64,000 nucleotides of DNA, taken from positions 1 through 64,000 of the forward strand of contig NZ_JAERVJ010000011.1 of the NCBI RefSeq assembly GCF_016745395.1, in the 5' to 3' direction. This document shows, one piece after another, positions 9,883 through 62,160 of the stretch; position 1 is the first letter of the stretch, and each line of letters starts with the position of its first letter. The notes beneath the pieces were generated by a model, which searched no databases, was not told the origin of the DNA, and was given only the letters and a program-made list of their open reading frames with translations. The stretch comes from Methylocystis sp. Sn-Cys (lineage in GTDB: Bacteria > Pseudomonadota > Alphaproteobacteria > Rhizobiales > Beijerinckiaceae). Position numbers and translations under genes: made by a program.

Positions 9883-9900
9883 CCAATCAGGCCCCGCGCC

Positions 9901-9979
9901 GTCATTGCGAGCGAAGCGAAGCAATCCAGGGCCGTAATGCGGCTCTGGATTGCTTCGTCGCTTTGCTCCTCGCAATGAC
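9901..9979. repeat. Intergenic palindromic repeat, family R1
   Basis: About 79 bases with arms GTCATTGCGAGCGAAGCGAA and its reverse complement, including GCAATCCAG/CTGGATTGC. Other copies are at 12621, 16107, 28082 and 57953. The apical bases differ between copies while the arms are kept. This copy lies between two convergent genes, where the hairpin could also end transcription. Confidence 0.88.
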
Positions 9980-12548: not shown

Positions 12549-12620
12549 ATTAGCTCACGCCCAGCATCCACTCGATTGCCAGAAGCAGAGTTTCAGTATG
12601 GCGTGTGAAAAGCAAGCGCC

Positions 12621-12701
12621 GTCATTGCGAGCGAAGCGAAGCAATCCAGGGCCGCGCCGACGCCGCTGGATTGCTTCGTCGCTTACGCTCCTCGCAATGA
12701 C
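12621..12701. repeat. Intergenic palindromic repeat, family R1
   Basis: Same arms as the copy at 9901 (GTCATTGCGAGCGAAGCGAA and its complement), with a different apical segment rich in CCGCGCCGACGCC. It lies between argJ and the lipoprotein gene, both on the minus strand. Confidence 0.88.
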
Positions 12702-16106: not shown

Positions 16107-16186
16107 GTCATTGCGAGGAGCGAAGCGACGAAGCAATCCAGGGCAGCGAGCGTGGCTCTGGATTGCTTCGCGTCGCTCGCAATGAC
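16107..16186. repeat. Intergenic palindromic repeat, family R1
   Basis: The arm begins GTCATTGCGAGGAGCGAAGC and closes with GCTTCGCGTCGCTCGCAATGAC. It lies between the convergent patatin-like and peptidyl-prolyl isomerase genes. Confidence 0.85.
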
Positions 16187-16197
16187 GGAGCTGGTTT

Positions 16198-17242: not shown

Positions 17243-20221
17243 CTATGCCGGAGGCGGCGCCTCTGACAACTCCCCAGCGCCGGTAGCGGGCCCAGAAAAC
17301 GGTCCGATGACAGACAGGAAAATCTCCCGCGTTCTCTTCTGAGAATCGGCGAGCAGCGCCTCGAGATGGGAGAGATTGGGCGAATCCCCGACCCGCAGCA
17401 GCAGTTCGGTCAGGCCGCGCGGCGCGTCCGTCGCCCGGAACGGGCCGTCAACGGCAAGGCGCAGCACTTGCGTGAGCCCCTGGTAAAGGCTCGCGGCGGC
17501 GCGAAGCGTCTCGGCCGCGCCAGCGTCGAGCAGGCCGGCGTCGCGCAGCTTGCGCAGCGCCAAAGGCGTCGTCGTGGAGAAAATCTCCGGATGCGCCGCG
17601 CCATGCAGAAGCATCAGATATTGGGCGATGAATTCGATGTCGATCAGCCCGCCCGCAACCTGCTTCACCTCCCAGGGGCTGTTCGAGCCCTTGGCCTGCT
17701 CGATGCGCTTGCGCATGGCGAGCACGTCGATTTTCAGCTTTTGCGGGTCGCGCGGCCGGGTCAGCGCGGCGCGGATCGCCGCCTCGACGCGAGCCGCGAA
17801 TGCCGCCGGCCCGGCGACGACGCGGGCGCGGGTCAGCGCCATATGCTCCCATGTCCAGGCCTCTTCCGCCTGGTAAGCCTCGAAGGATTTCAGGCTTACC
17901 GCGATCGGCCCCATATTGCCGGAGGGGCGGAGACGAAAATCCGTTTCGTAGAGCGTGCCTTCAGCGGTCGGCGCCGAAATCGCGGTGATGAGGCGCTGGG
18001 TGAGGCGGGCGTAATATTGCGCCGTCGAGAGCGAACGCTCGCCCCCGATAGACTCCGCGTGCGGATCGGCCTCGTAGAGCAGCATGAGGTCGAGATCGGA
18101 GGCGGCGGTCATTTCGCGCCCGCCGAGCTTGCCCATGGCGACGACCGCCGCCGCGCCGTTCTCTATGCGGCCATGCGCCTTTTCGAACTCCTTGCAAACC
18201 TCTTCGAAGAGGCTGGCAATCAGCGTCTCGGCAAGGCGCGTATAGGCGGCGCCGGCGTCCGCGACCGAGATCGAGCCGGTCAGCACGCGCACGCCGATGA
18301 GAAACTTCTGCTCCTGGCCGAAGATGCGGGCGCGGTCCAGCGCATCTTCATAGGAGCGCGCCTCGGCGAATTGCGCCGCAAGGCGCTCACGGAGATCGGC
18401 GTCGCTCGGCAGAGTGTGGAAGAACGCCGGCTCCATCAAAGCGTCGAGCACGCGAGGCCGCTTCGAGATGGTGGCGGAGAGCTTGGGCGCCGCGCCGGTG
18501 ATGGCGGCGAGCAGCGTGAGCAGGCGCGGCTGCGAGACGAGCAGCGAGAAAAGCTGCACGCCGGCGGGTAGCTTCTGGATAAGCTTGTCGAAAGCGAGAA
18601 AGGCCTGATCGGCATTTTCCGTCGCGGCGAGGGCTTCCAGCAATTTTGGCGTGAGTTCGGTCAGGCGTTCGCGCGCGACGGTCGAGCGCGTCGCGGCGTA
18701 GCGGCCAAAGTGCCAGCCACGAATAGTTGCGGTCACCATTTTGGGGTCTTTGTAGCCCATGCGCGCCAGCGTCTCGATCGTCTCGGGATCGTCGTCGTCG
18801 CCCGTGAAGACGAGATTGCCGCCGGTGGCGGAAAGCTCGGGCGCGCTTTCGAAGAGCCGCGCATAATGGCCCTGCACGATGTCGAGCCGCTTCATGAGCG
18901 CTTCGGCAAAGTCGTCATAGCCCGCAAATCCCATCATACGGGCGATATTCTCGACGCCTTCTTTCGTCTCGGGCAGCGTATGTTTCTGCTCGTCGGCGAC
19001 CATCTGAATGCGATGCTCGACGTCGCGCAGGAAGAGATAGGCTTCCCGCAAATCGTCGCGCGCCTGCGCTTCCACCCAGCCGCTTTCGACGAGCTGGTCG
19101 AGCATGGGCAGCGTCGCGCGGCCGCGCAATCTTTTGTCGCGTCCGCCGGTGATGAGCTGCTGCGTCTGCGTGAAGAATTCGATCTCGCGAATGCCGCCGC
19201 GCCCCAATTTGATATTGTGGCCGATGACGGCGATCTTGCCGTGGCCTTTATGCGCATGAATCTGCCGCTTGATCGAATGCACGTCGGCGATCGCCGCGAA
19301 GTCGAAATATTTGCGCCAGACGAAGGGCGACAGCTCCTGCAAAAACTGTTCGCCCGCGTAAATGTCACCGGCGACGGGCCGCGCCTTGATATAGGCCGCG
19401 CGCTCCCAATTCTGGCCCATGCTTTCGTAATAGGAGAGCGCCGCCTCCAGCGGAATGGCGATGGGCGTCGCGCCGGGGTCGGGACGCAGGCGCAAATCGG
19501 TGCGGAAGACATAGCCGTCGCTCGTGCGCTCGCTCATGATCTTCACGATGCGCTTGGTGAGCTTCACGAAGAGATCGACGTCTTCGGAAGGGTCGGTGAG
19601 GCGGGCGCGGGAACGGTCGAAAAAGACGATGAGGTCGATGTCGGAGGAGTAGTTCAGCTCATAGGCGCCGCCCTTGCCCATGCCGAGGAAAATCCACCCA
19701 GAGGCGCGTTCGGGATCGCGCTGGTCGGCGAGCTCGAGCTTGCCTGCGTGCTGGGCTTGGCGCAGCGTGAAACGAATGGCGGCGGAAAGCATGGCGTCGG
19801 CGATGCGGGTGAGGGCCTCCGTCGCCTGCAAAGTGTCCCAGGCTTTGGAGAGATCGGCGAGCGCGATGACGAGCGCCGCTTCCTGCTTGATGAGCCGCAA
19901 ACGGCGCATGATCTCGGCTTCGTCGTCCGTCTCCAGCGCGCGAGCCTCTCCGATAAGCCCGTCGACGCGCGTCTGCGGATCGGCCGCGAGCGCCGTCGTC
20001 AGACGCGCCGGGTCGCGCGCCGCAAGATCGGTGAGATAGGGTGAGGAGCCGAGGACGCCGAAGAGCAGGTCGCGCGCCTTGGGGTGTGCGGCGAGGAAGG
20101 ACGCGAGCGGGCCCTTATCTTTCTCCAACACGCGATCGAGCGCCTTTTGCGCTCTTTCGGCGTCGGCGGGGGAGATGATGATTTTCGCACGGGAGAGCAG
20201 GGCGTCGGCGTCGAGCGTCAA
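17243..20221 (-). CDS. glnE: Bifunctional glutamine synthetase adenylyltransferase / adenylyl-removing enzyme
   Basis: At 992 residues this is full-length GlnE, which attaches or removes AMP on the tyrosine of GlnA in response to PII and glutamine. Both nucleotidyltransferase domains are intact: the N-terminal removase has GMGKGGAYELNYSSDIDLI and the C-terminal transferase has AMGKLGGREMTAASDLDLM. The start is a TTG at 20221 preceded by AGAGGAC; the in-frame stop before it leaves no upstream alternative. Its target glnA (28337) and PII partner glnB (29845) also lie in this window. Confidence 0.94.
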   Translation of the reverse strand: MTLDADALLSRAKIIISPADAERAQKALDRVLEKDKGPLASFLAAHPKARDLLFGVLGSSPYLTDLAARDPARLTTALAADPQTRVDGLIGEARALETDDEAEIMRRLRLIKQEAALVIALADLSKAWDTLQATEALTRIADAMLSAAIRFTLRQAQHAGKLELADQRDPERASGWIFLGMGKGGAYELNYSSDIDLIVFFDRSRARLTDPSEDVDLFVKLTKRIVKIMSERTSDGYVFRTDLRLRPDPGATPIAIPLEAALSYYESMGQNWERAAYIKARPVAGDIYAGEQFLQELSPFVWRKYFDFAAIADVHSIKRQIHAHKGHGKIAVIGHNIKLGRGGIREIEFFTQTQQLITGGRDKRLRGRATLPMLDQLVESGWVEAQARDDLREAYLFLRDVEHRIQMVADEQKHTLPETKEGVENIARMMGFAGYDDFAEALMKRLDIVQGHYARLFESAPELSATGGNLVFTGDDDDPETIETLARMGYKDPKMVTATIRGWHFGRYAATRSTVARERLTELTPKLLEALAATENADQAFLAFDKLIQKLPAGVQLFSLLVSQPRLLTLLAAITGAAPKLSATISKRPRVLDALMEPAFFHTLPSDADLRERLAAQFAEARSYEDALDRARIFGQEQKFLIGVRVLTGSISVADAGAAYTRLAETLIASLFEEVCKEFEKAHGRIENGAAAVVAMGKLGGREMTAASDLDLMLLYEADPHAESIGGERSLSTAQYYARLTQRLITAISAPTAEGTLYETDFRLRPSGNMGPIAVSLKSFEAYQAEEAWTWEHMALTRARVVAGPAAFAARVEAAIRAALTRPRDPQKLKIDVLAMRKRIEQAKGSNSPWEVKQVAGGLIDIEFIAQYLMLLHGAAHPEIFSTTTPLALRKLRDAGLLDAGAAETLRAAASLYQGLTQVLRLAVDGPFRATDAPRGLTELLLRVGDSPNLSHLEALLADSQKRTREIFLSVIGPFSGPATGAGELSEAPPPA

Positions 20222-20399: not shown

Positions 20400-20637
20400 A
20401 TCCCCAAACGCGGGGCTCTCCCCTTCTCCCGCTTGCGGGAGAAGGTGGCCCTCGCGTCAGCGAGGGTCGGATGAGGGCCCACTGTTTATCGTTCCCGCTC
20501 ATCCCCCAAGCCCCTCACCCACCCTCTCCCCGCGCTGTGCGCGGGGAGAGGGGCAGAGCGCGGCCGTCGCAAAGAATTTCGCCCCCTAATTTATCCCCAC
20601 CCTCAAAAACCGCCTTATCCTTCCCCCGCCTCGTCAA
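20400..20637. other. Gene-free, hairpin-rich leader of the large dispersed repeat
   Basis: There is no credible gene. Hairpins include CTTCTCCCGCTTGCGGGAGAAG near 20423 and a CTCTCCCCGCG/CGCGGGGAGAG hairpin near 20524. From about 20497 onward the sequence is related to the reverse complement of 51481-51618, with many substitutions, in contrast to the nearly invariant core that follows. It could hold the promoter of the candidate RNA, although no clear -35/-10 pair stands out. Confidence 0.5.
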
Positions 20638-21094
20638 CTTGCAGGGGCGTCGTCAGGGTCGGCGGCGTCGGCGGGGTCGGTTAAGCGCGGGACGCGACCC
20701 TCGTTCCGTGCGGGACTCCGGCGCCGCCCGCCGGGTCTCTCCTTCGTGGGGAGATTGCGTGGAGAAATCCACGCAAAGGCTGGGCATAGTTTTCGCGCCC
20801 GCGACACGCGGCCCGAGTACCGAAAGGGAAAGCGCCGGCGGGCCGGAGGCGGCGCATGTCGAGGCCCTTGCGACGCGCTCGGGAGGTTCAAACCTCCCGG
20901 GAAAGAAGCAGGCGCCGTCTGGCGGCTGCGCCGGACGGAGGAACCGCCACGAGATGGCGCTACTTCGGCCCGGAAAGGTGCGCGCGAATAAAGACCGCAG
21001 CCGGGACGCTCTGGCCCCGATGCGCTTATTTTTCACGCTACCGGCCGAACGGGGCCGGGGCGTCCCGGCTTCCTGTATCGCCTCGCGTCGGAAA
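20638..21094 (+). ncRNA. Candidate structured non-coding RNA, copy 1
   Basis: This 457-base block recurs in reverse orientation at 51024-51480 with only three substitutions. Several hairpins can be drawn on the plus strand: 20714-20737 with one bulged base; 20755-20776, nine perfect pairs closed by a GAAA loop; 20880-20899; 20915-20938 with a GCUG loop and one U-G pair; and a long stem 21001-21019 with 21050-21068 containing two U-G pairs. In copy 2 two of the three changes fall in this stem and turn C-G into U-G pairs. On the opposite strand these would be A-C mismatches. A long open frame crosses it, but the substitutions change an amino acid and the product is Arg-rich and unlike any family I know. 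Promoter and ends are not defined. Confidence 0.55.
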
Positions 21095-21123
21095 TCGGCG
21101 GCGGGATTTGTGGCGCTGCATTG

Positions 21124-21241
21124 CCCCCTCCCCAACCCTCCCCCGCTTCGCGGGAGAGGGGGTAGATTGTGGCCTTCATTGAGAATGCTGATCGCGAGTG
21201 TCCCCTCTCCCGCTTTAGCGGGGGAGGGACAGGGAGGGGGC
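21124..21241. repeat. Intergenic palindromic repeat, family R4, attached to candidate RNA copy 1
   Basis: It has the same outline as 8633-8748, with outer arms of C-rich and G-rich runs and internal hairpins such as CCCGCTTCGCGGG. It lies 29 bases after the RNA core. The equivalent position after copy 2 holds its near-identical inverted partner at 50879-50997, so RNA block and repeat were duplicated together or are functionally joined. Confidence 0.85.
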
Positions 21242-21344: not shown

Positions 21345-22193
21345 ATGTCGAAAAAGAATATCGCCGCCCATCTTTCCCGCATCGCCGACGCGCTCGAGCG
21401 CCTCGCGCCGCCCGCGCCATCGGCGCCGGATTTCTCGGCCGCCGAAGCCTTTGTCTGGCGCGCGGCGGGCTCGGTCTTCCATCCGGTGGAGCGGATCAAC
21501 CGCGTGAGCCTTGGCCTGCTCGAGGGGATCAACCTTCAGCGCGATATTCTCTTTTCCAACACCGCGCGTTTCGCCCAGGGCCTGCCCGCCAATAACGCGC
21601 TGCTCTGGGGCGCGCGCGGCATGGGCAAATCCTCGCTCGTCAAGGCCGTGCATGGCGCGCTGGCGGGGGAGGGGCGGCTCAAGCTCGTCGAAATCCATCG
21701 CGAGGACATCGAGGCTCTGCCCGATCTGCTCGGCGCCCTCGCCGGCGCGCCCTACCAGTTCATCGTCTTTTGCGACGATCTCTCCTTCGACGGGCCGGAG
21801 ACGAGCTACAAGGCGCTCAAAAGCGCGCTGGAGGGCGGCGTCGAAGGGCGCCCTGGCAATGTCCTCTTCTACGCGACGTCGAACCGGCGCCATCTCATGC
21901 CGCGCGACATGATGGAAAATGAAAGCGCCAACGCCATCCACGGCAAGGAGGCGGTGGAGGAGAAGGTCTCGCTCTCCGACCGTTTCGGTCTTTGGATCGG
22001 TTTCCACAACTGCAATCAGGATGATTACCTCGCGATGGTCTTCGGCTACGCCCGCCATTATGGGCTGGAGGCGCCGGAGGCCGATATACGCGCGCAGGCG
22101 CTGGAATGGGCGATGACTCGCGGCGCGCGCTCGGGCCGCGTGGCGTGGCAATTCGTGACCGACCTTGCCGGGCGGTTGGGGAAGACGCTGTAG
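21345..22193 (+). CDS. DUF815 family AAA-type ATPase
   Basis: The 282-residue protein has a Walker A motif in LLWGARGMGKSSLVKAVH, a Walker B-like strand FIVFCDDLSF, and the sensor segment VLFYATSNRRHLMPRDM, all typical of DUF815 proteins related to AAA ATPases. The role of the family is not established. The segment between the candidate RNA region and this gene is about 100 bases long. It is directly followed by a small membrane protein gene with no gap. Confidence 0.88.
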   Translation: MSKKNIAAHLSRIADALERLAPPAPSAPDFSAAEAFVWRAAGSVFHPVERINRVSLGLLEGINLQRDILFSNTARFAQGLPANNALLWGARGMGKSSLVKAVHGALAGEGRLKLVEIHREDIEALPDLLGALAGAPYQFIVFCDDLSFDGPETSYKALKSALEGGVEGRPGNVLFYATSNRRHLMPRDMMENESANAIHGKEAVEEKVSLSDRFGLWIGFHNCNQDDYLAMVFGYARHYGLEAPEADIRAQALEWAMTRGARSGRVAWQFVTDLAGRLGKTL

Positions 22194-27938: not shown

Positions 27939-28081
27939 GAGCGCTTCTCTCTGCCCGACGCTGATGTAGGCGCCGGCGCGCCTAAAGGAAAGCGTCGCCC
28001 TCTCCCGATCTGATAGCATTTCCGTTTGAACAGCTCGCATCGAATCCAGAGCCATAAAAGCGCTGGTTTTATTCAGAGCCC

Positions 28082-28162
28082 GTCATTGCGAGCGAAACGA
28101 AGCAATCCAGGGCAGCGATGCGGCCCTGGTTTGCTTCGTCGGCTCCGCCTCCTCGCAATGAC
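28082..28162. repeat. Intergenic palindromic repeat, family R1
   Basis: A slightly diverged copy (AACGAAGC in the left arm, CTGGTTTGC on the right) of the element at 9901. It lies in the 400-base gap between the PHA-system gene and glnA. The rest of that gap contains the glnA terminator and nothing else I can identify. Confidence 0.83.
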
Positions 28163-39181: not shown

Positions 39182-39224
39182 GAAAGCCGCAACTGTCTTT
39201 GGCTATTGCCGGGAATCTCTCGGC

Positions 39225-39339
39225 GTCATGCCCGGCCTCGTGCCGGGCATCCACGCCAGGCAGCCGCGGCGCCGTCGCCACATCATCAAGGTCTTTGCAG
39301 CTTCGGGGCGTGGATGGCCGGGACAAGCCCGGCCATGAC
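39225..39339. repeat. Intergenic palindromic repeat, family R3
   Basis: The arms read GTCATGCCCGGCCTCGTGCC on the left and the rearranged complement CGGGACAAGCCCGGCCATGAC on the right, with a variable middle. Related copies are at 55013 and 61792. It separates the HlyD gene from the ATPase gene without breaking the operon order. Confidence 0.8.
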
Positions 39340-39359
39340 GGCTGAGAGGCGGGCGGGCA

Positions 39360-47201: not shown

Positions 47202-47639
47202 ATGCCACGCAGTCACGGCACGGAACAAGGCAAAGGCACCGAGAAGTCCAAGGGCACGATGACGGTTCAGGAAGCCGGCAAGATGGGCGGCGAGATCCGT
47301 AAGGAGGAACTCGGCCCGGAAGGCTATTCCGAGATCGGCAAGATGGGCGGCGAGGTCCGCAAGGAGCAGCTCGGCCACGAGGGCTATTCGGAAATGGGTA
47401 AGAAGGGCGGCGAGGCGCGCAAAGAGCAGCTCGGCCCGGAAGGCTATTCCGAACTCGGCAAGATGGGCGGCGAAGCGCGCAAGGAGCAGCTCGGTCCTGA
47501 GGGATACTCCGAACTCGGCCACAAGGGCGGGCAGCGCGTGAAGCAGCTCATCGAGGAAGGCAAGCGCGCCGAAGGCGAGGGCGCTGGCGAGGAGGAAGAA
47601 GGCGGCGAGGAAAGCCCTCGCGGCAAACCGCGCCACTGA
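47202..47639 (+). CDS. KGG-repeat stress-induced protein, four-unit form
   Basis: The 145-residue hydrophilic protein is made of four tandem copies of a unit of about 22 residues, of the form [20 protein letters not shown], and ends with a [15 protein letters not shown] cap. These are the KGG/GsiB-type hydrophilins, similar to LEA-like proteins and fungal con-10, linked to desiccation, heat and osmotic stress. Glu and Lys are abundant, with few hydrophobics, so disorder is likely. A GGGAGG ribosome site precedes it. It is the first of five clustered genes. Confidence 0.88.
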   Translation: MPRSHGTEQGKGTEKSKGTMTVQEAGKMGGEIRKEELGPEGYSEIGKMGGEVRKEQLGHEGYSEMGKKGGEARKEQLGPEGYSELGKMGGEARKEQLGPEGYSELGHKGGQRVKQLIEEGKRAEGEGAGEEEEGGEESPRGKPRH

Positions 47640-47664
47640 CGCCGACTTTTGAAGGAGAAGCGAG

Positions 47665-47862
47665 ATGGCCCAGCGGCAATCTGGTCAGGAACCCGGGAAG
47701 GCCGGCAAGGGAAAGATGACCGTCCAGGAAGCCGGCCACCTCGGCGGCGAGAAGGGCGGCCATAAGGGCGGTCAGCGGGTCAAGGAGCTGATCGAGGAAG
47801 GCAAGGAGAAAGAACAGGAACAGTCGACGGGCAAGGGCGCCCAACCCAAGCAGCGCCACTGA
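47665..47862 (+). CDS. KGG-repeat stress-induced protein, short form
   Basis: The 65-residue protein consists of MTVQEAGHLGGEKGGHKGGQ and the cap [16 protein letters not shown], hence only a single KGG unit with no long repeats. It shares the MTVQEAG box with the first protein, showing that the paralogues arose from one ancestor. A GAAGGAG ribosome site lies before it. Confidence 0.85.
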   Translation: MAQRQSGQEPGKAGKGKMTVQEAGHLGGEKGGHKGGQRVKELIEEGKEKEQEQSTGKGAQPKQRH

Positions 47863-47890
47863 CGGTGGGCCACAGGAGAAGGACGCCATC

Positions 47891-48091
47891 ATGCCGCAGA
47901 AGCACACTGAGCCCGAGAAGCCGCCGGTTCGGCACGGGCAGATGACGGTCGAGGAGGCGGGACGCCTCGGTGGCCACAAGGGCGGCCAGCGCGTGAAGCA
48001 GCTTGTCGAGGAAGGCAAGCGCGTCGAGCGCGCGGAAGGCGCCGAGGACATCGAGAACACGCAGGATGAAGAGGAGGACGGCGAAGCCTGA
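47891..48091 (+). CDS. KGG-repeat stress-induced protein, acidic-tail form
   Basis: The 66-residue protein has [18 protein letters not shown] and then an acidic tail ([14 protein letters not shown]). It is a third version of the same cap sequence. An AGGAGAAGG ribosome site is well placed. The acidic tail may change its charge balance in the protective mixture. Confidence 0.85.
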
Positions 48092-48128
48092 TCCTTGGGT
48101 TTCGCCGCAACGGCGAAAGGAACAGAAG

Positions 48129-48353
48129 ATGCCGCAGAAACACAGTGGAACGCAGGGCGGCGGGAAGTCGCCGGCCAAGCCGATGACCGTCAAGGAAGCC
48201 GGCAAGATGGGCGGCGAGATCCGCAAAGAAGAGCTGGGGCCCGAGGGCTATTCCGAGCTTGGCCACAAGGGTGGGCAGCGCGTGAAGGAGCTCATCGAGG
48301 AAGGCAAGCGCTCGGAAGGCGGCGGCCCCGCGAAGGGCGGCAAGAAGCACTAG
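48129..48353 (+). CDS. KGG-repeat stress-induced protein, one-repeat form
   Basis: The 74-residue protein combines the [20 protein letters not shown] box, one [11 protein letters not shown] unit and the cap [11 protein letters not shown], followed by a Gly/Lys tail. It is an intermediate between the four-unit and the short form. The start at 48129 follows GGAACAGAAG. Confidence 0.85.
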
Positions 48354-48908: not shown

Positions 48909-50846
48909 ATGGTTGCGGTTACTTTCCCCGACGGGGCGTCCCGTCAGTTCGAGGCCGGCGTCACGGGCTTCGACATCGCCAAAAGCATCTCCCCCTCTCT
49001 GGCCAAGCGCAGCGTCGCCATGACGCTCGACGGCGCGCTCGTCGATCTGATGAAGCCGGTCGAGAAGGACGCAAAGCTCGAATTCGTCTCGCGCGATGAC
49101 CCCCGCGCGCTGGAGCTTATTCGCCACGACGCCGCCCATGTGCTGGCCGAGGCCGTGCAGGAGCTTTACCCCGGCACGCAGGTCACCATCGGCCCGGTCA
49201 TCGAGAACGGCTTCTATTACGATTTCCATCGCGCCGAACCCTTCACGCTCGAGGACCTGCCCGTCATCGAGAAGAAGATGCGCGAGATCATCGCCCGCGA
49301 CGCGCCGATCGTGCGCGAGGAATGGGACCGCGACCACGCGAAGACCTGGTTTATCGCCAAGGGCGAGACCTTCAAGGGCGAGCTGATCGACAGCATCAAG
49401 TCGGACGAGCCGCTCTCCGTCTACAAGCAGGGCCACTGGCTCGATCTCTGCCGCGGCCCGCATCTGCCGTCGGTCGGCAAGATCGGCAACGCCTTCAAGC
49501 TGATGAAGGTCGCGGGCGCCTATTGGCGCGGCGACTCGAGCAAGCCCATGCTCTCGCGCATCTACGGCACCGCCTGGACGACGCAGGAGGAACTCGACGC
49601 TTACCTGCATCGCTTGGAGGAAGCCGAGCGCCGCGACCATCGGCGCTTGGGGCGCGAGATGGATCTCTTCCATTTCCAGGAGGAGGGACCGGGCGCGATC
49701 TTTTGGCATCCCAAGGGCTGGACGCTTTTCCAGTCGCTCGTCTCCTACATGCGCCGCAAGCAGAAGGCCGCCGGATATACGGAGGTCAACACGCCGCAGG
49801 TGCTCGACCGCGCGCTGTGGGAGACCTCCGGCCATTGGCAGACCTATCGCGAGAACATGTTCGTCACCAAGACGGAGGACGAGCGCGTCTTCGCGATCAA
49901 GCCGATGAACTGCCCCGGCCATGTGCAGATCTTCAAGAACGGCTTGAAGTCCTACCGCGACTTGCCGGTGAAGATCGCCGAGTTTGGCGTCGTGCATCGC
50001 TACGAGCCCTCGGGCGCGCTGCACGGCATGATGCGCGTGCGCGCCTTCACGCAGGACGACGCGCATATCTTCTGCTCCGAAGACCAGATCATGGACGAGG
50101 CGCTGAAGATCAACGACCTCATCCTCACCATCTATCGCGACTTCGGCTTCGACGACGTTGTGGTGAAGCTCTCCACCCGTCCTGAGAAGCGTGTGGGCTC
50201 CGACGAAGCCTGGGATAAGGCGGAAGCCGCTTTGTCGCGCGTGTTGGATGAGCTCGCCAAGCGTGGGCTGAAGACCGGCGTTCAGGCGGGCGAGGGCGCT
50301 TTCTACGGGCCCAAGCTCGAATATACGCTGCGCGACGCCATCGGCCGCGAGTGGCAATGCGGCACGACGCAGGTCGACTTCAACCTGCCGGTGCGCTTCG
50401 GCGCTTTCTATATCGGCGCCGACAGCGAGAAGAAGGTCCCGGTGATGATCCACCGCGCGATGTTCGGCTCGCTGGAGCGCTTCACCGGCATATTGATCGA
50501 GCACTACGCCGGCCATCTGCCGCTGTGGCTCTCGCCGCTGCAGATCGTGATTTGCACGATCACGCAGGAGGCAGACGACTACGCCTATGAGGTTGCTGCC
50601 GCGGCCCGCAAGCTCGGCCTCAATGTCGATGTCGACGCCCGCAACGAGAAGATCACCTATAAGGTGCGCGAACATTCGCTGGCCAAGGTTCCCGTTCTTC
50701 TCGTCGCCGGCAAGAAGGAGGCGGCCGAGCGGACGATCTCCATCCGCCGCCTCGGCTCGCAGCAGCAGACGCAGCTCGGCATCGACGAGGCGCTGAGGCA
50801 GCTCGCCGATGAGGCGACGCCGCCGGATGTGAAGGGGGCGGCTTAG
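48909..50846 (+). CDS. thrS: Threonyl-tRNA synthetase
   Basis: At 645 residues it is full length. An N-terminal TGS domain, an editing domain ([22 protein letters not shown]), the class II catalytic core with zinc ligands around [10 protein letters not shown] and [14 protein letters not shown], and the anticodon-binding domain ([18 protein letters not shown] region) are present. AGGAG before the ATG gives the start. It charges tRNA-Thr. It is monocistronic; its end lies next to copy 2 of the candidate RNA. Confidence 0.95.
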
Positions 50847-50878: not shown

Positions 50879-50997
50879 GCCCCCTCCCTGTCCCTCCCCC
50901 GTTTCACGGGAGAGGGGACACTCGCGACCAGCATTCTCAATGAAGGCCACAATCTACCCCCTCTCCCGCGAAGCGGGGGAGGGCCGGGGAGGGGGCA
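50879..50997. repeat. Intergenic palindromic repeat, family R4, attached to candidate RNA copy 2
   Basis: In reverse orientation it is almost identical to 21124-21241, sharing the middle sequence ATTGTGGCCTTCATTGAGAA. It follows RNA copy 2 in the RNA's direction, as the equivalent element follows copy 1. It lies just after thrS. Confidence 0.85.
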
Positions 50998-51023
50998 ATC
51001 CAGCGCCACGACTCCCGCCGCCG

Positions 51024-51480
51024 TTTCCGACGCGAGGCGATACAGGAAGCCGGGACGCCCCGGCCCCGTTCGGCCGGTAGCGTGAAAAATAAGCGCATCG
51101 GAACCAGAGCGTCCCGGCTGCGGTCTTTATTCGCGCGCACCTTTCCGGGCCGAAGTAGCGCCATCTCGTGGCGGTTCCTCCGTCCGGCGCAGCCGCCAGA
51201 CGGCGCCTGCTTCTTTCCCGGGAGGTTTGAACCTCCCGAGCGCGTCGCAAGGGCCTCGACATGCGCCGCCTCCGGCCCGCCGGCGCTTTCCCTTTCGGTA
51301 CTCGGGCCGCGTGTCGCGGGCGCGAAAACTATGCCCAGCCTTTGCGTGGATTTCTCCACGCAATCTCCCCACGAAGGAGAGACCCGGCGGGCGGCGCCGG
51401 AGTCCCGCACGGAACGAGGGTCGCGTCCCGCGCTTAACCGACCCCGCCGGCGCCGCCGACCCTGACGACGCCCCTGCAAG
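51024..51480 (-). ncRNA. Candidate structured non-coding RNA, copy 2
   Basis: This is the reverse complement of 20638-21094 with three substitutions across 457 bases. Of these, two adjacent C-to-U changes (in RNA sense, at 51103 and 51102) convert C-G to U-G pairs within the long hairpin and keep it paired. The third (51445, U to C) lies in a region where my pairing is uncertain. The GAAA-capped stem, the GCUG-capped stem and the UUCAAA-capped stem are identical to copy 1. It runs against thrS and is free of its reading frame. Confidence 0.55.
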
Positions 51481-51778
51481 TTGGCGAGGCGGCTGGAGTG
51501 TAAGAGAGGTTTTGGGGGTGGGGATAGATTGGAGCGAAATTTTTGATGAGGGCCGCGCTCCGCCCCTCTCCCCGCGCTTGCGTGGGGAGAGGTTGGGCGA
51601 GGGGCGTGGGGGATGAGTGGACACGAAAAACGCGGCAAGGCGTTCGTGGCCTATACGCACGCCCGGGTTCCGGCGCCGTCCCCTCACCCAGCCTCGCAAG
51701 TGGGGAGAGGGGCAGATGCTCCCAAAATGCTTAGGTTGTGGTAGCTTTGGCGGGCATTTTTTGAAGCAGGTTGTCGGA
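51481..51778. other. Gene-poor flank of candidate RNA copy 2
   Basis: The first part (to about 51618) is related to 20497-20637 but with many changes. It contains CCTCTCCCC/GGGGAGAGG hairpins (51560-51600; 51700-51720). No believable gene is present until the small membrane protein at 51779. Confidence 0.4.
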
Positions 51779-54979: not shown

Positions 54980-55012
54980 TTTTGCGTGACACATCTTCAT
55001 GTCGCCGCCCGC

Positions 55013-55162
55013 GTCATGGCCGGGCTTGTCCCGGCCATCCACGCCGAGCAAGTGGCAGCTAACGCTGGGAACGGGACTTCGGAGCCTTTTGTCCATAGCG
55101 ACAACGCGTCTCGGTCCGCTATGCCCCTTGGCGTGGGTGGCCGGGACAAGCCCGGCCATGAC
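55013..55162. repeat. Intergenic palindromic repeat, family R3
   Basis: Left arm CGTCATGGCCGGGCTTGTCC and right arm GGACAAGCCCGGCCATGACG are true complements over about 25 bases. The variable middle spans some 90 bases. It lies between sucC and the TPR gene; the rest of that gap (54917-55377) shows only the sucC terminator and no gene. Confidence 0.85.
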
Positions 55163-55377
55163 GGCTGTGAGATGCGTGACTCCCCTAGCGCCTATGGGGG
55201 TGAATAGCGTCAGATCGCCATTCATGCGATTGCTCGCGGGGCGTATCCTTCCGCCTTGCTTCGCGGGCGCAAAACCGCCATCTTTGGGGCCGAACCTGAC
55301 CACTCCGGCCACTCGTCCGGGCGGATGCGCCATGTCTTGCTTCAAGGACGCGCCGCCCTTTTCCTAGGAAAGCGCCC

Positions 55378-57880: not shown

Positions 57881-57952
57881 GGGCGGGCCTCAGGGGAAAT
57901 GTTGAACGTCGCCCTTCAAATCAAAGGGCGCGACAGTGGTCAAGCCGCGGCC

Positions 57953-58031
57953 GTCATTGCGAGCGAAGCGAAGCAATCCAGGGCCGCTACGTGGTTCTGG
58001 ATTGCTTCGTCGCTGCGCTCCGCGCAATGAC
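57953..58031. repeat. Intergenic palindromic repeat, family R1
   Basis: Its arms are as in the copy at 9901, with a variable apex (GCTACGTGGT). It lies between the YciI gene and the coiled-coil protein gene, both on the minus strand. Confidence 0.88.
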
Positions 58032-61744: not shown

Positions 61745-61791
61745 AAGAGTCAGGGCTCCGAATTCGGGTTAACGCGCAGATGTGTTCCAGC

Positions 61792-61930
61792 GTCATGGCC
61801 GGGCTTGTCGCGGCCATCCACGCTGCGCCGATGCGGAAAGCCTAAGAACATGAGCGGAGCAACGCCGCTTCTTCTTCCCGCGTGTTCGTAATGTCCTGGC
61901 GTGGATGCCCGCGACAAGCGCGGGCATGAC
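61792..61930. repeat. Intergenic palindromic repeat, family R3
   Basis: GTCATGGCCGGGCTTGTCGC opens it and GCGACAAGCGCGGGCATGAC closes it, around an unrelated middle. It lies between the divergent cysQ and chpT genes; the remainder of that gap (to 62160) has AT-rich stretches that may contain promoters, but no gene. Confidence 0.82.
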
Positions 61931-62160
61931 GGGCTGCGTAGGGTTTGTTAACCTGGATTCGGAGCCCCGTCATAAGACTATCCTTTAGTTTTTGTTTACG
62001 ACCCCGACGCTTGCGATTTGCAATCTGCGTCGCCGCAGTTACCTTTCCCGGAAACTCTATGGCGTGATTCGTTTGCTTTTTCTTTGCTGATTCGCGGCAA
62101 AGGATTTCGGGCTCGTATCACGCAACCATCGCGCGCCCGCGCGCCAAACGGGATAGCCCA

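Follow-up and report, generated by a model that had tools for sequence, protein, structure and literature searches.

A multi-copy candidate gene for a structured RNA in Methylocystis, probably a long subclass of the Methylosinus-1 family, with copies homogenised by gene conversion

The candidate sRNA Methylosinus-1 (Rfam family RF03108) reportedly comes from the 2017 study of 224 candidate structured RNAs, and our literature search found no paper naming Methylosinus-1 or RF03108. The genes for rRNA are a known case of multi-copy concerted evolution, and a search for papers on small RNAs that evolve in concert turned up none on a bacterial RNA family, as judged by titles. Other points of comparison are the alpha-proteobacterial sRNAs EcpR1 and alpha-r45, which are intergenic stand-alone RNAs in the related host Methylosinus sporium according to excerpts of PMC12403871, and the large ornate RNAs OLE, GOLLD and ROOL, which like the RNA considered here are long, highly structured, bacterial and without a coding frame, as far as the excerpted text of PMC12286853 describes them.

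The stretch of DNA analysed here, referred to as the window, comprises 64,000 nt of Methylocystis sp. Sn-Cys (contig NZ_JAERVJ010000011.1). An initial annotation had proposed that a nearly invariant block at 20638–21094 is a new structured RNA and had suggested comparison with Rfam. No family matched the window at its gathering score. A loose-threshold search placed RF03108 over part of the block, aligned end to end (model positions 1–214) with a score that misses its gathering threshold (38.8 against 145.1 bits), and the claim of novelty stands only in part. Group I and II introns, RNase P, tmRNA, 6S RNA and known riboswitches were absent among the 18 Rfam matches obtained to an E value of 10 in 20500–21200. 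EcpR1 and alpha-r45 were absent from the Rfam results for the window at gathering score and for 20500–21200 to an E value of 10. OLE, GOLLD and ROOL likewise gave no Rfam match, which was the sole comparison made with them, and they differ from the window RNA in that the latter is multi-copy with gene conversion.

The best reading of these alignments is that the window element represents a long class or subclass of the Methylosinus-1 family in which RF03108 forms the inner part. As in the window's genome, RF03108 is multi-copy in the genomes of g159, a sister genus that is probably Methylosinus, and matches to R1, a covariance model of the 3′ half of the element, often overlap or adjoin RF03108 matches there (G464, 2.82 Mb). 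The 3′ stem also appears to be common to the g159 loci and the window element, including short and middle-sized relatives. An extra domain of approximately 100 nt (GGGAAAGAAGC...GGAAAGGTGCG), which follows the RF03108 part and precedes the 3′ stem, distinguishes the window subclass, and the Rfam model omits both the 5′ edge and the 3′ stem of the window copies. By eye, the g159 loci fall into size classes: short (the RF03108 part plus the 3′ stem), middle-sized and one long copy (G525).

The block had been reported to recur inverted at 51024–51480 with three substitutions, between more diverged adjoining bases, and our counts agree. One difference lies in 20635–20700 and two lie in 21000–21060, while the edges adjoining the block have mismatches at 4 of 22 and 8 of 23 positions upstream and at 4 of 25 downstream. 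Both the extent and the number of copies had been underestimated. The inverted copies at 20588–21094 and 51024–51530 are 97% complementary, and homology to non-orthologous copies extends over a full repeat of approximately 531 bp (about 20588–21118; Table 1). In the host genome (G000; 4.02 Mb in 20 contigs), there are six copies with at least 97% identity and a further paralogue at 76%. At another locus (C8:902521-903024) blastn aligned the ends only, and R1 scored 157.6 bits. Two more pieces stop at the ends of contigs C13 and C18 and align to the two sides of a single locus (L042) in the genome of a related species (G002), so that the host genome holds at least nine loci. In G002, copy g (L044) has lost approximately 200 nt.

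Table 1. Coordinates of features of the element and its surroundings in the window
Feature	Coordinates	Strand	Evidence
Copy 1 of RNA gene: promoter-like segment, predicted transcript, terminal hairpin	20588–21118	+	Extent of homology to non-orthologous copies
Copy 2 of RNA gene, low end approximate	51000–51530	-	Inverted repeat and genome matches
Block homogenised among six host-genome copies	20638–21094	+	98–100% within-genome identity, mismatch counts
Conserved upstream segment TATCCCCACCC...TATCCT; -10-like box 20616–20621, predicted start near 20628	20592–20621	+	Column conservation
Segment matching RF03108 Methylosinus-1, E 4.4e-7	20673–20884	+	Rfam loose-threshold search
Long-range closing helix 20678–20682/20993–20997, 98.3% of cells paired, one-side changes only	20678–20997	+	Consensus covariation
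Helix 20685–20694/20702–20711, both-side changes in 7/10 pairs	20685–20711	+	Consensus covariation
Hairpin 20880–20887/20892–20899, both-side changes in 7/8 pairs	20880–20899	+	Consensus covariation
Two extra hairpin domains, both-side changes in 10/17 pairs	20910–20974	+	15 relatives
3′ terminal stem 21000–21009/21060–21069; inner alternatives 21013–21019/21050–21056 or hairpin 21042–21046/21053–21057	21000–21069	+	Row L001 of alignment A3
Final GC-rich hairpin lacking a U-tract; its position resembles that of a terminator	21082–21105	+	Consensus fold
REP-like palindrome beside copy 1	20522–20552	.	Palindrome scan
REP-like palindromes beside copy 1	21126–21228	.	Palindrome scan
REP-like palindromes beside copy 2	50892–50993	.	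Palindrome scan
REP-like palindrome beside copy 2	51564–51591	.	Palindrome scan

A non-coding RNA under structural constraint had been put forward for the block, and this is supported by covariation, by the asymmetry of folding between the strands and by the lack of a Pfam match. The sense strand of copy 1 gave a fold z-score of -4.79, with none of 100 shuffles as low, and the opposite strand gave -1.38, with seven of 100 as low. The alignments used here comprised 24 (A1), 22 (A2), 28 (A3) and 15 (A4) copies. An RNAalifold consensus for 24 copies from eleven genomes contained 105 pairs, of which 35 had changes on both sides, and 96.5% of its 2500 cells were paired. Cells with compensatory changes on both sides numbered 206, compared with a shuffle mean of 68.1 (0 of 500 shuffles as high) and with 23–59 in six versions with slid partners, though both controls are tilted in favour of the structure, because it was derived from this very alignment and the copies share ancestry. 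The best-supported helices were those at 20685–20711 and 20880–20899, and several of the long-range helices showed one-side changes only. Two extra hairpins, recovered with 15 relatives, sit in a region that is blurred by the main alignment. Of the two stems that had been singled out for a covariation check, the one at 21001–21068 has compensated outer pairs, while the hairpin at 20755–20776 can be drawn but is peripheral and missing altogether in some lineages. When all column pairs were scanned for additional covariation or pseudoknots, lineage effects overwhelmed the signal, and that scan was discarded.

A protein-coding reading, which had already been considered weak, was rejected; 14 of the 24 copies have a stop in every plus frame (a stop-free plus frame remains in 10 of the 24), and the three open reading frames overlapping the block matched no Pfam family. 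On the comparative evidence, the block encodes a structured RNA whose orientation is that of copy 1 (the plus strand at copy 1 and the minus strand at copy 2), and covariation in the aligned copies shows a multi-branched fold closed by a long-range helix and followed by a separate 3′ stem.

Across 28 sequences drawn from two genera, the outer ten pairs of this 3′ stem were 99.3% paired, with compensation at three of the ten, and the stem is thus upheld as it was originally drawn. Two inner pairings are incompatible with each other, namely a long extension (86.7% paired in the 28 sequences) and a local hairpin (92.9%), and both are largely kept across the two genera, though these pairing percentages lean high since the 28 loci in A3 were chosen from 43 using a stem-anchored motif. 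The 15 loci left out had no usable match (L021, L022, L058, L059, L060, L062, L064, L067, L068, L071, L072, L082, L135, L147 and L148). Two of the three differences between the window copies are neighbouring C-to-U changes in the inner extension that keep the pairing as U-G, as had been noticed in the sequence. Only one of 11 RF03108-type loci in Methylocystis fitted the pattern used to select the 3′ stem, and for this reason the single-copy Methylocystis type may depart from the long class in this stem. In nine of the other ten, GGCGTCCCGG, either exact or with one base changed, lies downstream of the match to the model. As a separate observation, the conserved alternative inner pairings at 21000–21069 resemble a conformational switch.

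At the 5′ end, an alignment of 30 copies shows the columns of TATCCCCAC to be shared by at least 90% of them, and a TATnCT-like box follows. The upstream segment was tabulated for 33 copies; these are the loci that could be parsed among 44 candidates, the 11 omitted being five full-length loci without the anchor pattern and six partial ones, and the anchor pattern itself favours starts resembling TATCCCC. By its position the conserved segment is a putative promoter. A scan for sigma-70 consensus promoters and terminators at copy 1 found none, and the -35 of the Methylocystis type misfits the published RpoD consensus, which for M. sporium is TYGMSV-N17-TATAHT in the excerpted text of PMC12403871. 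Motifs of the form TTGAC(A/T/G)-N17-19-TAnnn(C/T), which resemble that consensus, were found upstream of 13 of 17 g159 loci (550 nt scanned, with no chance estimate). The same excerpts describe terminators without a U-tract as common in M. sporium, and the GC-rich hairpin at the 3′ end, which has none, may end transcription.

The suggested covariance-model search of related genomes was productive. R1 detected the element in 15 of 39 genomes of the genus (12 of them above 100 bits), in 17 of 298 genomes of the family (seven of g1, the window's own genus, taken to be Methylocystis, nine of g159 and one, a weak match, of g158) and in four of 297 genomes of the order, two of g1 and two weak matches outside it (L129, 27.6 bits, and L130, 25.5 bits). 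The element is dispensable, because the part covered by R1 is present in only 15 of the 39 genomes of the genus. RF03108 matched seven times in the host genome, six times with an identical score. Matches with an E value of 0.001 or less were found in 23 of the 39 genomes of the genus, with one of the 39 above the cut-off, and in the family 25 of 298 genomes had matches, nine of which passed the cut-off (eight of g159 and G010). Clear members were seen only in Methylocystis and the sister genus that is probably Methylosinus. Two exact-pattern matches outside these two genera, one in the MAG of a betaproteobacterium (L160) and one in a contig from IMG/VR (L167), lie inside long open reading frames, scored 14.2 and 13.5 bits with R1 and were judged to be due to chance. 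Two weak R1 matches, L112 (G004:C62:14142-14347, 29.8 bits) and G014:C70:21649-21854 (26.9 bits), may represent a further distant subclass in the genus. L129, from another family of the order, has 52% G+C and keeps GAAGC-GCGCCGTCAGGC, and is either a very distant relative or a chance match.

The initial annotation had also raised recent gene conversion as a source of the near-identity of the copies. G101, another genome of this species, served as the comparison partner for orthologues, and seven of the eight intact host loci have flank-matched counterparts in it. The core is 98–100% identical among the six G000 copies and 88–95% identical among the G101 copies. Between orthologues, core identity at loci b, c, d, e and f was 91, 92, 93, 94 and 96%, corresponding to 43, 36, 30, 28 and 20 mismatches, compared with 1, 4, 0, 0 and 9 mismatches, respectively, to the nearest copy in the same genome. 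The outer flanks of these orthologues were 95–98% identical in eight of nine alignments, the exception being the sequence upstream of e (90.8%). As the interiors follow the genome while the flanks are orthologous, gene conversion is indicated; the mismatch counts bear out the earlier suggestion and point firmly to gene conversion, rather than structural constraint alone, as the main cause of the near-identity. The repeat edges (43 nt upstream and 25 nt downstream) are far less homogenised than the core, and clearly track orthology only at d (upstream) and c (downstream), with a tie or a closer paralogue elsewhere. As in concerted evolution of the rRNA type, the interior is homogenised within a genome between orthologous outer flanks, but unlike rRNA the window RNA is accessory and patchy between species. 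For two single-copy paralogues, flank comparisons between G000 and G101 were made on one side. The core of g was 99% identical with a flank at 94.4%, and that of h was 97% identical with a flank at 97.2%, and h was thus no more conserved than its flank. Compared with another species (G002), the core of h was 98% identical and its flanks about 93%.

Copy 1 lies between glnE (17243–20221, minus strand) and a DUF815 ATPase gene (21345–22193, plus strand), and copy 2, on the minus strand, faces the 3′ end of thrS (48909–50846, plus strand); these gene names derive from Pfam domains. No protein other than the element's own frames recurred in more than two of 36 loci, barring an end ORF at L156 that was grouped with the element frames. 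REP-like palindromes were found within 130 nt upstream of 15 of the same 33 copies and within approximately 200 nt downstream of 17 of them, compared with four of 517 background tiles; because these tiles take in coding sequence, they understate the intergenic background. Locus c, with flanks that we take to be hemC and a hydrolase-like gene, is empty in G002, where 234 bp separate the flank anchors compared with 808 bp in G000. At this one empty site the junction falls within REP-like palindromes, other palindromes are present there and no target duplication was seen. Comparison at this site indicates that copies are gained or lost at intergenic positions. Synteny with G101 breaks down at copy 1. 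In G101 the interval from the element to 21217 is longer by about 2.8 kb, and the 15 kb retrieved beyond held no stretch of at least 200 nt that matches the upstream part of the window.

The main rival explanation is a non-autonomous mobile element, a 531-bp cassette mobilised at the DNA level by an enzyme whose gene lies elsewhere, with the RNA fold serving this movement, for instance by acting as guide or scaffold RNA. The dispersal of the copies (0–8 matches per genome in the genus), the presence or absence of the element at locus c and the four h-like copies in G009 versus one in G000 would all fit, but we consider it unlikely. Most intact host loci are matched by their flanks in G101, the cassette is bounded by a promoter-like segment on one side and a terminator-like hairpin on the other, no terminal inverted repeats were seen by eye in the alignment, and the difference at locus c lies within REP-like palindromes without target duplication. 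There was also no match in phage or plasmid collections, and these searches, together with Pfam, did not return the known mobile element or protein domain that the initial annotation had named as evidence against an RNA.

Very little probability is given to a cis-acting, riboswitch-like leader for the next gene. Copy 1 stops approximately 230 nt upstream of the same-strand DUF815 gene, and the 3′ domain offers two inner pairings that exclude each other, a feature also of switches, but copy 2 runs towards the 3′ end of thrS, which is on the other strand, and this reading was set aside on orientation and the absence of a constant neighbour. It is also highly improbable that the element is an unselected GC-rich repeat kept identical through recombination only, with an incidental fold. 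That copies recombine and decay, that REP-like palindromes surround many of them and that within the species the conservation of h does not exceed that of its flank are consistent with such a repeat, and against it stand the compensatory changes in many helices across lineages, the conservation of g, and of h between species, above that of their flanks, and an opposite strand that folds little better than shuffles.

We consider it likely that the element is a stand-alone structured RNA gene of approximately 460–490 nt, belonging to a long Methylosinus-1 subclass in type II methanotrophs of the Methylocystis and Methylosinus kind, probably trans-acting and with copies homogenised by gene conversion. 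Transcription is predicted to start from the promoter-like segment upstream of each copy and would stop at the last GC-rich hairpin. The RNA would most likely act in trans, as a folded RNA or a component of an RNP, a role suggested by negative evidence, namely the lack of a constant neighbour and the orientation of copy 2 opposite to thrS. Its dose may be supplied by several dispersed loci, with gene conversion keeping the copies within a genome nearly identical. More speculatively, and rather doubtfully, there may be large ribozyme- or RNP-like RNA machines peculiar to type II methanotrophs, in several size classes that would share a 5′ domain and a 3′ stem able to switch between two inner pairings, with dosage and identity maintained by rRNA-like gene conversion. 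The RNA itself might conceivably serve as the template for conversion, since the homogenised tract has roughly the same extent as the predicted transcript.

These findings extend an orphan short Rfam candidate to a family of full-length RNA genes with ends, size classes and variation in copy number, and provide an apparent case of concerted evolution in a bacterial non-ribosomal RNA. As clear members were confined to Methylocystis and the probable Methylosinus, the function could bear on life on methane. Public transcript-end data for M. sporium permit a direct test, and PRJNA1238525 is a data set for M. sporium 5 according to excerpts of PMC12403871.

The window contains other repeats. One palindromic repeat (GTCATTGCGAGCGAAGCGAAGCAATCCAGGGC...) that has no relation to the RNA is dispersed over the window, at 9898–9979, 12610–12684, 16123–16197, 28079–28160 and 57950–58031, and a second palindromic family (GTCATGGCCGGGCTTGTCCCGGCCATCCACGC) at 39220–39348, 55008–55171 and 61787–61939. 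At 47271–48326, repeats of 60–77 nt encode similar protein units (16 letters), which are reminiscent of what we take to be KGG stress-protein repeats.
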